Shown here piece by piece: positions 14,604-47,038 of a stretch of DNA of 64,000 nucleotides. The notes beneath the pieces are model-generated. The model had not been told where the DNA came from, ran no database searches, and was given only the letters and a program-made list of their open reading frames with translations. The stretch is taken from the NCBI GenBank assembly GCA_025449735.1, contig JANWIV010000003.1:124001-188000 (forward strand), written 5' to 3'. The stretch comes from Candidatus Microgenomates bacterium. GTDB lineage: Bacteria > Patescibacteriota > Microgenomatia > UBA1406 > HO2-37-13b. The translations under genes were made by a program, and so were the position numbers. Numbering within the stretch: position 1 is the stretch's first letter; each line of letters begins with the position of its first letter.

Positions 14604-15644
14604 ATGAAAACACATATCCTAACATTCAACAATTTAGTTGAGGCAAAAATAAACGGCATAATTAATAACTTATTTTTTAAAATTGCTCTCCCTGACAAAA
14701 AAACGCCAGGTTTTGAATTTCTAGGATCCGCAAAGGCTTCAAGTGTAAGAAAAGCCGGCTTCGTAAGTTTTTGTAGAAAAGATGGGAAGAAAGTGTTTAT
14801 GAAGAAACATCAGTATAAGTTTAAGGATATGGACTACTTATATATTCTCAATGAAGCGTCAATTCTATCAATGTTGAAGTCACATATCGGATGTAAATTT
14901 AATTCTGGACCGGGAACAATAGTCTGTATTGGAAACTTTTTAGAATCGAAAGATACAGGATCAACCATTTACATCGCAACTTCTTTCGCTGAGGGAAAAA
15001 TGTTAATAGAATTCTCTGAAGATGAAAAAATCTTAGTATTGCAAAGTTGTATAAAGGTCGTTGGTGAGCTCTTTGGAAAACTACCAAACCATGCCAAAAA
15101 AAACATATCTAAGAGAGGAACAATGTCATTTTTTCTTTCATTTCCAGTATTGGGATTGAAACTAACCTTGAGAGACCTAAAACTATTACCTATGTTTCTA
15201 AAGTGTTCATTGCTTTTCTATAAAAACTTCCTATCCTCATTAAATGAGAAATCAATGATGTCTCTAACCCATCGAGATCTAAATAAAGAAAATATTCTAT
15301 ATGATAAAAAAACTAAAACGGCTACCATAATTGACTGGGAAAACACGGTTATTACAGATAACTTATATGACCTAGCTACACTTCCATGGCTCTATGCAAA
15401 TTGGATATCTGAGGGAAAACTAATCTCGTTTCTCAGTGGGCATCTAAAAACAAATAGTTCAAAAAAGAGATTCATCGCATTAGCGATCTATCATGCAATC
15501 CAGTGTATATCTGTCTATAATAAAGGAAGCATCCATTATAGAGATGTTCTGTTACACACGACTAAATTTATAAATAGAACTGCCGGATTGATTCTTGCTC
15601 CAAATAGTAAAGTTAAATCTTTAAAACTGTCATCAAGTATATGA
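14604..15644 (+). CDS. APH/choline-kinase-like phosphotransferase
   Basis: LTHRDLNKENILYDKKTKTATIIDWENTVITDNLYDLATLPW kinase catalytic and metal motifs. Confidence 0.75.
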   Translation: MKTHILTFNNLVEAKINGIINNLFFKIALPDKKTPGFEFLGSAKASSVRKAGFVSFCRKDGKKVFMKKHQYKFKDMDYLYILNEASILSMLKSHIGCKFNSGPGTIVCIGNFLESKDTGSTIYIATSFAEGKMLIEFSEDEKILVLQSCIKVVGELFGKLPNHAKKNISKRGTMSFFLSFPVLGLKLTLRDLKLLPMFLKCSLLFYKNFLSSLNEKSMMSLTHRDLNKENILYDKKTKTATIIDWENTVITDNLYDLATLPWLYANWISEGKLISFLSGHLKTNSSKKRFIALAIYHAIQCISVYNKGSIHYRDVLLHTTKFINRTAGLILAPNSKVKSLKLSSSI

Positions 15645-16681
15645 AAAGTGGTCAAAAATTACTTATCACCGGTGGGGCAGGATATATTGGCAATGAGCTG
15701 ATTAAAATAGTGCCAAAAGGAATTGAAATTATAGTGATTGATAATTTTCATATTGACACAGAGCACAAAAGACACGTTAATGATAAGCTTCGAAAAAATC
15801 GAAAGCTCACATTAATCGACTCCAATGTTTCAGAAAGTCATAAATACAAAGAATTACTAGAAGATATTCGCATCGTAGTCTATATGGCTTCGCTCAACTC
15901 TTATAGGGAGTCAAACGCCGACCCGCTCATGTATTTGAAAGAGAACAGCACAAACCTTCAAATATTCCTAAATACTTTAGGACAATATTCTCCCAATATT
16001 GAGAAGTTTATTCTGACATCTACAAGAGGAGTTTATGGCGAGGGCTCGTATATATGTAATAGTTGTAATAATAGATTTTACCCACCGCTGGCTGAAGAAT
16101 TAAAATGCACAATATGTTCGAGCTTAAATGTATATCCCCAGAAAATAAAAGAGACAGATATGACAAACCCCTCTTCACTGTATGGAATTACAAAAAAGCT
16201 CCAAGAAGACTTGCTTAGTATGTATTGTTCTGAGAACGACATACAGCTTGATATTTTCCGTATTTTTAATGTATACGGTGAAGATCAGGGAAAATATTAT
16301 TCAAATATAGGCATAGTGCCCCAAATATATGAACAAATCATAAAGCAAGGGGAAATGTATTTAAGTGGTAATGGTAATATTACAAGAGATTTTGTTTATG
16401 TCGCAGATGTTAACAGCATAATTTTAAAGTCGATTTTTTTAAAAAATAAAAGAAGAAATAACAAAGAGATATATAATCTTGGCTCAGGTCAACCAATTAG
16501 TATTAATGACATAGCTAAAGTCTTTGAAACTTTAGGCTATTCATTCAAAAAAAACCGACTTAAAAACTATGAAGATATAAAATATTCTGTAGCTGATAAT
16601 TCAAAAGTCATTAAGGACTTTAATATAAAAGACTTTAAAAGTATGTTCGATTTCTTAGCCAATACCTACAAAAAAATATGA
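15641..16681 (+). CDS. NAD-dependent epimerase/dehydratase (extended SDR) with zinc-ribbon-like insertion
   Basis: GGAGYIGNELI; CNSCNNRFYPPLAEELKCTICSS insert before SSLYGITK (YxxxK). Confidence 0.85.
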   Translation: MKSGQKLLITGGAGYIGNELIKIVPKGIEIIVIDNFHIDTEHKRHVNDKLRKNRKLTLIDSNVSESHKYKELLEDIRIVVYMASLNSYRESNADPLMYLKENSTNLQIFLNTLGQYSPNIEKFILTSTRGVYGEGSYICNSCNNRFYPPLAEELKCTICSSLNVYPQKIKETDMTNPSSLYGITKKLQEDLLSMYCSENDIQLDIFRIFNVYGEDQGKYYSNIGIVPQIYEQIIKQGEMYLSGNGNITRDFVYVADVNSIILKSIFLKNKRRNNKEIYNLGSGQPISINDIAKVFETLGYSFKKNRLKNYEDIKYSVADNSKVIKDFNIKDFKSMFDFLANTYKKI

Positions 16682-22538: not shown

Positions 22539-22595
22539 TATACCCATTCTCCTTCAATTGATTAGTTCAATACTGAAAAAATAGGCTATTTTGCA

Positions 22596-22744
22596 TACTT
22601 TTGCAGTTTTTTGTGACTTGCGTAGGCAGCGTATGAGCTGTTTCTGATCAATAGCGGGTGATCCCGAATGGGATGGGTTCCCGCGTACATTGATCAGCTT
22701 ACAGATCATAGCCCCGCAGCTCGGAACAAAAAACTGTAAAAGTA
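22596..22744 (+). ncRNA. Unassigned structured RNA, copy A
   Basis: 19-bp closing stem 22596-22614/22726-22744 (one G.U), inner stem CTGATCAAT/ATTGATCAG, GCGGG/CCCGC apical hairpin; homologous to copy B at 38257-38410. Confidence 0.75.
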
Positions 22745-22818
22745 GAAAGTTTATTTGTGAATTTCTTTTTCAAATTTCATTTATTGAAAATTCCATTCCA
22801 GTTTGCTACTATATATAT

Positions 22819-38176: not shown

Positions 38177-38256
38177 AAACCCCTTCATTAACAATTAATC
38201 CAAACTGACTATGCTCTTTACTTTTACAATTTTCAGAACATAAAAAAGGCTTTTTG

Positions 38257-38410
38257 CATACTTTTGTCTTTTTCATGACTTGTGGAGGCAGCGTAGAAAC
38301 TGTTTCAAAATGATGCCAGGAGACGGCCATTGCCCGAGGTGTTCCTCGCATGAATTTTGAATTACAGTTTCTAGACCCGTAACTCAGGCACTGAAAAAGA
38401 TAAAAGTATG
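38257..38410 (+). ncRNA. Unassigned structured RNA, copy B
   Basis: 19-bp closing stem 38257-38275/38392-38410 (one G.U), GAAACTGT/ACAGTTTC and TTCAAAAT/ATTTTGAA inner stems; shares AGGCAGCGTA and flanks with copy A. Confidence 0.75.
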
Positions 38411-38597
38411 AGGATTTATTTGAGTTTGCGGAGCCTGTCCCGAGTTTGACAGAGGGATCGCATTCCTCGCAATGACCAAAATAATTCGACCATGCAATTA
38501 GAAATTTTCTGTTGTTTCCCTTCTTCGCTCTTAGCTTCCCACTTCGTCCTTCGGACTTCGAGGGACGAGACGGCGGGCAGGCATGTTTCATACTTTG

Positions 38598-45605: not shown

Positions 45606-45623
45606 GTTTTTGCATAAAGTATC

Positions 45624-45771
45624 CAAGATACAAGAAACAAGATACAAACAAATTAAAATGTTCAATAACCAACTCACAATCCGCGAATAGTTTGTTAATT
45701 GTTAGTTGGAGCTTGTTTGCCTGCCTGTCGGCAGACAGGTTCCTTGTGAGTTGTTTCTTGTTACTTGAAAA
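45624..45771. repeat. MITE-like palindromic heptad repeat, copy 2
   Basis: CAAGATA CAAGAAA CAAGATA CAAACAA ... CCTGTCggcaGACAGG ... TTGTGAG TTGTTTC TTGTTAC TTGAAAA. Confidence 0.85.
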
Positions 45772-45775
45772 GCTT

Positions 45776-47038
45776 ATGAATAATCAAATGCTCAAAAAAG
45801 TAATTCCTTTTATCGCTATTTTTGTCTTAAGCCTTGGCGTTGCTGTCACTACTTTCATTCAAGAAAATACCCGTCAGGCCGAAGCGGCAGTTGACGGCAT
45901 TAATATCGAGCTTACCAACCAATCAGCCAGTTTGGATGCAAAATCAAATTGGAGTTGGCGGGCTGACCTTTTAGCAGAAAACCATATTGGTGAAAAAGTA
46001 GACACCGAGTCTGTAGTCAGCTGGTGTCGGGAGACTTTTGGCAAGAAAGGTGAGTCAGAAGGTAGAATCTGTAATAGCGATCTCACCCCTGCAGAATTCA
46101 TCTCGGTACTCAAGCGAGAAAAAAAATCAATCACTATTCAAAACAGCAATTTTGAAGTAGTCCATCCAGGGGTCAAGTGCGGTCGCGTTTATCTTGAGAT
46201 TTATGGACTTGATGGCGTGCTCGGCACTGAAGTCTATGACACTGGTATTGAATGTAAAGATTCTGACATCCCAACTCCCACTCTCACCGGCGAGCCTCAA
46301 TATGGCCTACTCGATGAAAACGGCAATGAACTCTCCTTTTCTGAATTGATCAAAGACATTTTTTCAATTTTTGGTAGCTTTAATAAAAATGCTGAAACTT
46401 CGCCTACAGAGCCTTCGCCAGGAGCGGGTAATAACCCACTCACCCCTTTTCCAACAACACCTCCTAATGACCCCGGCGTCGCTTGTAGTGGGAGCTCTGT
46501 CGTCTCTTGGGCCGGTTGCATTAGTGAAAAATTAGAGCTCGGGATTGAGCATCGATTCAATAAAATGTTAGGTAATATAGCAAATGGTGGCTATACGGCG
46601 ACCAAGCGCAGTGCTCAAAATGAAGGGACTAGCCCAACAGGAATTTATTGGTGCACAAATATCGTTATTGATTCATATAATTTGTTTTACCCTGGGGCCG
46701 GCAATAACCCCAGCGCTGCTCACCAGTCAGTGCTTAATATGAGGCGCTTCTTTGCTTCGACCTCAGGATATCGCTACCTTGATTTTAGAAATGTCGCCAC
46801 TAGGCGGGATGCACTTGAAAAAACCAGAGCCGGCGATGTACTTATTATGCAGTCTGTCTTTGATCGTCATACCAGTCAGCATGTCGGTATCATCAGTTCA
46901 ATTGAAATCGATAGTCATTGCAATGGTAAAATTCGCACTCTAGAATCAAATTCAGCCAGAAAGGATCATGCTTATGTGGTTCGCGCTTGTGATATTATCA
47001 ATACCTCCTATCCGGTGGTTGCCATTGTCGGTAAATAA
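45776..47038 (+). CDS. Exported CHAP/NlpC-P60-like peptidase candidate
   Basis: Start trimmed to 45776; signal peptide; IYWCTNIVIDSYN and TRAGDVLIMQSVFDRHTSQHVGIISSIE (Cys/His). Confidence 0.6.
   Translation: MNNQMLKKVIPFIAIFVLSLGVAVTTFIQENTRQAEAAVDGINIELTNQSASLDAKSNWSWRADLLAENHIGEKVDTESVVSWCRETFGKKGESEGRICNSDLTPAEFISVLKREKKSITIQNSNFEVVHPGVKCGRVYLEIYGLDGVLGTEVYDTGIECKDSDIPTPTLTGEPQYGLLDENGNELSFSELIKDIFSIFGSFNKNAETSPTEPSPGAGNNPLTPFPTTPPNDPGVACSGSSVVSWAGCISEKLELGIEHRFNKMLGNIANGGYTATKRSAQNEGTSPTGIYWCTNIVIDSYNLFYPGAGNNPSAAHQSVLNMRRFFASTSGYRYLDFRNVATRRDALEKTRAGDVLIMQSVFDRHTSQHVGIISSIEIDSHCNGKIRTLESNSARKDHAYVVRACDIINTSYPVVAIVGK

Follow-up and report, generated by a model that had tools for sequence, protein, structure and literature searches.

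Two hairpins in the window (the whole 64,000-nt stretch of DNA analysed) belong to a family whose hairpin is maintained through sequence change. The family is an unnamed repeat, absent from Rfam, and the two hairpins – copies A and B – may well be members of a small intergenic palindromic repeat that has spread in the genome and resembles in its behavior non-autonomous hairpin repeats known from other bacteria: ERIC, NEMIS/Correia and RUP. The original prediction was of a structured RNA family, against which a known repeat or transposon identity was held to count: the copies resemble such repeats in kind, but match no known family.

Copies A and B and the anatomy of the hairpin

Both hairpins can be read directly in the window sequence. 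In each, two arms of 19 nt, 95% complementary and with one G.T, close a core that spans 22596-22744 (149 nt) in copy A and 38257-38410 in copy B. The folding energy of A (-72.9 kcal/mol over 191 nt) lies far below that of dinucleotide shuffles (-44.6 +/- 4.2; z -6.8, 0/200), and the same is true of B (-61.7 over 186 nt vs -40.5 +/- 4.1; z -5.2, 0/200). Given these arms, the length of the A segment and folds that beat shuffled sequence, both copies are genuine, as first described. Their features are as follows.

22590..22755, + strand: copy A, whole element by covariance model (match of 151.4 bits; fold z -6.8)
22596..22614, + strand: copy A, 5' arm of outer helix P1 (inverted-repeat search; fold)
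22615..22633, + strand: copy A, conserved 5' bulged strand GACTTGCGTAGGCAGCGTA (pattern search; 93% mean conservation, n=8 copies)
22726..22744, + strand: copy A, 3' arm of outer helix P1 (inverted-repeat search; fold)
38253..38419, + strand: copy B, whole element by covariance model (match of 172.1 bits; fold z -5.2)
38257..38275, + strand: copy B, 5' arm of outer helix P1 (inverted-repeat search)
38277..38295, + strand: copy B, conserved 5' bulged strand GACTTGTGGAGGCAGCGTA (pattern search)
38392..38410, + strand: copy B, 3' arm of outer helix P1 (inverted-repeat search)

The strand GACTTGnGnAGGCAGCGTA, with up to three mismatches allowed, is expected 0.05 times in the window and was found twice; TAGnCCCGnAnCTC and TTTATTTG are likewise common to A and B. 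What had been called unpaired is partly weakly paired, GUG-a-CUU-gng-GAG lying opposite CUC-AGG-CAC.

The outer helix P1 comprises 17-19 bp and is A/T-rich, with a nearly invariant outermost CUUUU/AAAAG and a variable middle. Inward of P1 lies the short bulged stretch just given (GUG-a-CUU-gng-GAG / CUC-AGG-CAC), followed by P2 and then by P3, the sequence of which varies freely among copies. The apical stem carries a purine-rich (also described as G-rich) internal loop on one side only and comes in two types: type I, GGGURA-NNN-CGAAUG-NNN-UGGGWUCCC, and type II, AGGAGA-CGG-CCAUUG-CCG-AGGUNNUCCU. In copies A and H pairing extends beyond P1, in A through AAAUAGGCU / AGUUUAUUU, and the TTTATTTG flank that had been noticed beside the hairpin is explained by this extension; in the other copies it is not clear. 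The core measures ~150 bp, and the element with its flanks up to ~200 bp. The same rod is obtained when each of eleven sequences is folded independently, and both the consensus and the individual folds (n=eleven) contain several small bulges or internal loops and no one large bubble.

Copies, distribution and genomic setting

The copies were found with a pattern taken from the conserved strand and then with a covariance model built on six of them. In the assembly to which the window belongs (0.82 Mb in four contigs, 89% complete) this search, of the kind that the original prediction had proposed, returned eight intact copies: A, B and six beyond the window (C to H). It also returned three diverged copies (R1, R2 and R3) in Candidatus Roizmanbacteria RIFCSPHIGHO2_02_FULL_37_13b, a genome of another genus in the same family. 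Scores of the sequences on which the model was built are circular; matches of the six-sequence model to G, H and the three copies of the second genus are not. A ninth locus at home (G000:C4, about 27998) is a truncated relic between cytidylate kinase-like and prolyl-tRNA synthetase-like genes (identified from translations): the right half alone is retained, palindromic repeats of other kinds stand where the left half would be, and the covariance model no longer matches. Copy C is a mosaic, with arms that resemble those of E and F and an interior that resembles that of D.

Among 85 genomes searched with the covariance model, the element is present in 2/9 of the family and in 0/76 others of the order. 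Samples of the class (385 genomes) and phylum (389 genomes), searched through a coarser filter with seven candidates scored per genome, gave nothing beyond the family except one doubtful two-copy case, G123. The exact 27-base apical pattern, which covers type I only, has no other match in 85,488 GTDB species genomes, nor any match in viral contigs, and phage, plasmid and E. coli collections gave no match. Candidates from two sources were rejected: 26 viral-contig matches to a 16-base left pattern, with no covariance-model match at those loci, and one-mismatch pattern matches in two genomes (G003 and G022), where the partner strand is missing nearby and the model matches nowhere in either genome.

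The doubtful case, from the same class but another family, consists of two hairpins of similar shape, X1 and X2 (L065 1501-1674 and L066 1501-1678, both on the - strand); X2 sits between two convergent genes. They score 37-41 bits, but the same model gives 35-49 bits to true copies read on the reverse strand, and a sequence-only nhmmer search gives 14.7 bits. They were therefore rejected as proven homologues, and are taken here for an analogue or a possible distant relative of the Roizmanbacteria family.

Copy number and distribution bear on the family to which A and B were first compared. It had been proposed that the hairpin might be a 6S-like mimic for RNA polymerase, and with 6S RNA (RF00013) it does share a rod-like fold and a similar length: the hairpin is closed by a long stem, pairs weakly in its middle and ends in an apical stem, with 150-200 nt in total. 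However, 6S RNA has a large single-stranded central bubble between its closing and terminal stems (PMC4064990), and a single large bubble appears in none of the eleven folds. Nor is the distribution that of a housekeeping RNA with one or few copies: there are eight copies in this genome, one further copy is truncated, presence is sporadic, and the element is lacking from 7/9 family genomes. The proposed check against Rfam (version 15) yielded no matching family at gathering or lax thresholds, and RF00013 was matched by no copy (E<=5 for copy A, E<=3 across 13 loci). A 6S-like function is thus scarcely credible.

In their own genome the intact copies and the relic are all intergenic. A co-oriented gene lies downstream at 9/13 loci and upstream at 8/13 (the 13 including X1 and X2). 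In view of the downstream count, a cis-regulatory leader of the downstream gene, riboswitch-like or a thermometer, has also to be weighed. Copy F ends near the start codon of uppP, and R3 ends one base before the start of pyrE (names from translations). Yet a co-oriented downstream gene is missing at D, R1, X1 and X2, and the downstream genes are functionally unrelated: a phage-holin-like membrane protein and release factor 2 follow A and B, and glycosyltransferases, uppP and pyrE (again named from translations) follow other copies. We regard a leader as very unlikely, and a riboswitch was rejected outright because orientation and neighbours vary between copies. Beside copy F, four tRNA genes are clustered downstream of the uppP-like gene (L017 2442-2811).

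Pairs of copies with near-identical interiors (E-F, B-G and A-H) stand in unrelated flanks. Copies D and R2, from different genera, occupy the same site, which follows a GH18-like gene and precedes one that encodes a small membrane-anchored protein (from translations), in opposite orientations relative to these shared neighbours: either there were two insertions, or the interior was inverted in place. In a further genome (G004) the same two genes are 23 nt apart and the element is absent; the genus of G004 is so distant that the join is not defined to the base, and with one genome per species no base-exact empty site was shown. Behind the GH18-like gene, the spacer holds an unrelated hairpin of ~90 nt in one genome (G008) and a palindrome of ~190 nt in another (G022; loci L068, L070, L072 and L073), and is possibly a hotspot for hairpin repeats. 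Copies A, B, D, G, H and R1 have TA...TA ends, the TA lying within the helix; C, E, F, R2 and R3 do not. No target-site duplication was seen in the flanks of copies.

A source of mobility was sought among known enzymes. No DDE_3 (IS630-type) transposase gene occurs in ten genomes including this one, and an IS630 parent was therefore rejected. Y1 (RAYT-like) genes do not track the presence of the element: the genome of A and B has a single one, G123 has none, and such genes are common in genomes that lack the element. The single Y1 gene is flanked by a palindrome (AAAGGGTTCGAGTAACAATTAACCC/GGGTTAGAAGTTACTCGAACCCTTT; L104, G000:C1 about 66556-66798) that is unrelated to the element, and the covariance model has no match at this locus. 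Within ~1.5 kb of the copies there is no obvious partner gene for a retron- or HEARO-like RNA. Insertion into a pre-existing palindrome was rejected, as arm-only hairpins were not found in the genome. Taken together, identical interiors in unrelated flanks, the relic, mixed orientation, the site shared by D and R2 and sporadic presence fit a small mobile repeat.

Other palindromes occur nearby. A second kind of palindromic repeat, ending AATGACA/ATGACC (for example TGAGATTCTCACGTCGTC...CCTCAGAATGACA), abuts the 3' side of 4/8 copies (window 38420-38480 and the flanks of D, E and H; L018, L021, L024) and also flanks the relic (L111). At 45608-45783, just 5' of a probable start codon, a long palindrome with 40-nt arms (73% complementary) and a 96-nt spacer carries a repeated A-rich motif, AAGATACAAGAAACAAG, and has no match to the model of the element. 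A 27-nt inverted repeat (16417-16645; 81% complementary, 175-nt spacer) lies within a predicted coding ORF (15641-16681).

Covariation and its possible causes

In an alignment of the eleven sequences – made with the covariance model, and hence biased toward structure – 95.6% of cells are standard pairs, and two-sided changes occur at 27/42 pairs (76 cells). Any covariation measure was matched by 0/500 shuffles, and shifting the partner by 1-3 columns abolishes the signal. When each copy's 5' arm was paired with the 3' arm of every other copy, own-copy pairing proved the stronger both for P1 (-16.3 vs -8.5 kcal/mol) and for P3 (-9.1 vs -3.7 kcal/mol), with 0/5000 permutations in either case. 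On these grounds, and with eight copies at home and three abroad, the predicted family with a maintained hairpin is borne out.

The further claim, which took compensatory change at this scale as strong evidence that an RNA fold is under selection, is not supported. Between close copies (A-H, B-G, C-D and R2-R3) standard pairs show 18 two-sided vs 2 one-sided changes, some of the former at adjacent pairs, and G-U accounts for 14/434 standard pairs. Under ordinary point mutation with selection, one-sided intermediates would be expected to be more frequent; where DNA synthesis switches template within an inverted repeat, two-sided changes of several bases are predicted (PMC8794818), and likewise inversion of the spacer (PMC8604942). 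With mostly two-sided changes and few G-U intermediates, the covariation shows a maintained palindrome and not, by itself, a selected RNA: errors in the copying of DNA, and not selection on an RNA, may account for part of the paired changes. At the same time the unpaired strands are conserved within the genome (93% for the 5' strand, 84% for the 3' strand), which argues for some selection on shape. Template switching would tend to erase bulges, and this counts against a purely mutational cause. On the named strand G-U exceeds A-C (14 vs 4, from cells that are not independent), which weakly favors an RNA of that strand.

Two readings other than a mobile repeat draw on these data. The first is a dedicated family of small RNAs, encoded in several copies and active in trans; a protein might, for instance, bind the conserved bulges and the G-rich apical loop, while gene conversion would homogenise the interiors and the outer helices would drift compensatorily. 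Strong covariation, conserved unpaired strands, the G-U excess and mosaic copies such as C are what such a family would display; but most family genomes do without the element, a truncated copy persists, orientation is reversed at the orthologous site of D and R2, and no consistent promoter or terminator was found at A and B. We consider it possible, though doubtful. The second is a structural element at the level of DNA, a single-stranded or cruciform hairpin that some recombinase, transposase or nucleoid protein would recognise, the RNA being incidental. G-U pairs are indeed rare, swaps are mainly from Watson-Crick to Watson-Crick, an interior may have been inverted at one orthologous site and a promoter signature was not seen at A and B; on the other side stand the excess of G-U over A-C on one strand, weak evidence for RNA as it is, and the failure to find an associated recombinase. 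This second reading appears unlikely.

The outer helix may have a history of its own. The interiors of X1 and X2 are identical over ~125 bases, and their outer arms are unrelated to each other but complementary within each copy (GGATCTTCCCA/TGGGAAGATCC and AGTTTTCTA/TAGAAAACT); a milder form of this pattern is seen in B and G. The X1/X2 pattern suggests that the outer stem is regenerated locally. In the full form of this reading the interior would be copied unchanged and the arms would be inverted copies of local flank, made by template switching or in some way on insertion, and the closing stem of a mobile hairpin would thus be built afresh at every locus: this we rate as rather improbable.

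Comparison with known hairpin repeats

Bacterial MITEs such as ERIC, NEMIS and RUP measure ~100-200 bp, and their transcripts form long stem-loops (PMC2229807); individual sizes are ~127 bp for ERIC, 107 and 155 bp for NEMIS/Correia and 107 bp for RUP (PMC2229807, PMC10969869). RNase III cuts Correia/NEMIS transcripts, and ERIC affects mRNA stability (PMC10969869). Like these repeats, the element is 100-200 bp long, non-coding, repeated and intergenic; it has terminal inverted repeats (the 19-bp arms), its whole transcript is predicted to form one long stem-loop, and it is patchy among related genomes and mixed in orientation. The TA...TA ends of many copies, though they lie within the helix, may be a further resemblance. 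Unlike them, it has helices that diverge strongly between copies and yet remain paired, and it contains conserved bulged strands. By sequence it is not ERIC: E. coli carries ERIC, and among 5,426 genomes of that species blastn gives no match to copy A (E<=0.1). A second comparison is with REP/REPIN sequences and their RAYT (Y1) transposases (PMC3116915). These too are dispersed extragenic palindromes, and the genome has one Y1 gene, but the element is at least five times longer and the palindrome beside that gene is unrelated to it.

Several points count against a MITE: copy number is low, the flanks show no target-site duplication, no empty site was shown to the base, no mobilising gene was found among DDE_3 and Y1/RAYT genes, and the genome has no arm-only hairpins. 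Conservation of the bulged strands across two genera suggests a function beyond mobility. If the element is nevertheless a mobile repeat, it would spread as DNA, the enzyme being supplied in trans. A read-through transcript from a neighboring gene would fold at the element into a long rod, and either RNase III would cut this rod or the rod would protect mRNA ends or leave them open to attack, as in NEMIS and ERIC. Complementarity of the arms would be kept partly by DNA polymerase switching template between them, and the bulges and G-rich apical loop would be kept by selection.

Heavy two-sided covariation is usually taken as proof of a selected RNA, but can come from palindromic DNA through template switching. 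A set of eleven copies in which bulges are conserved helps to tell these causes apart: conservation of unpaired strands points to selection, and two-sided helix changes without intermediates point to a mechanism of mutation. Present as eight intact copies in a reduced bacterium with a genome of 0.82 Mb, the family provides a natural test case for RNA searches.
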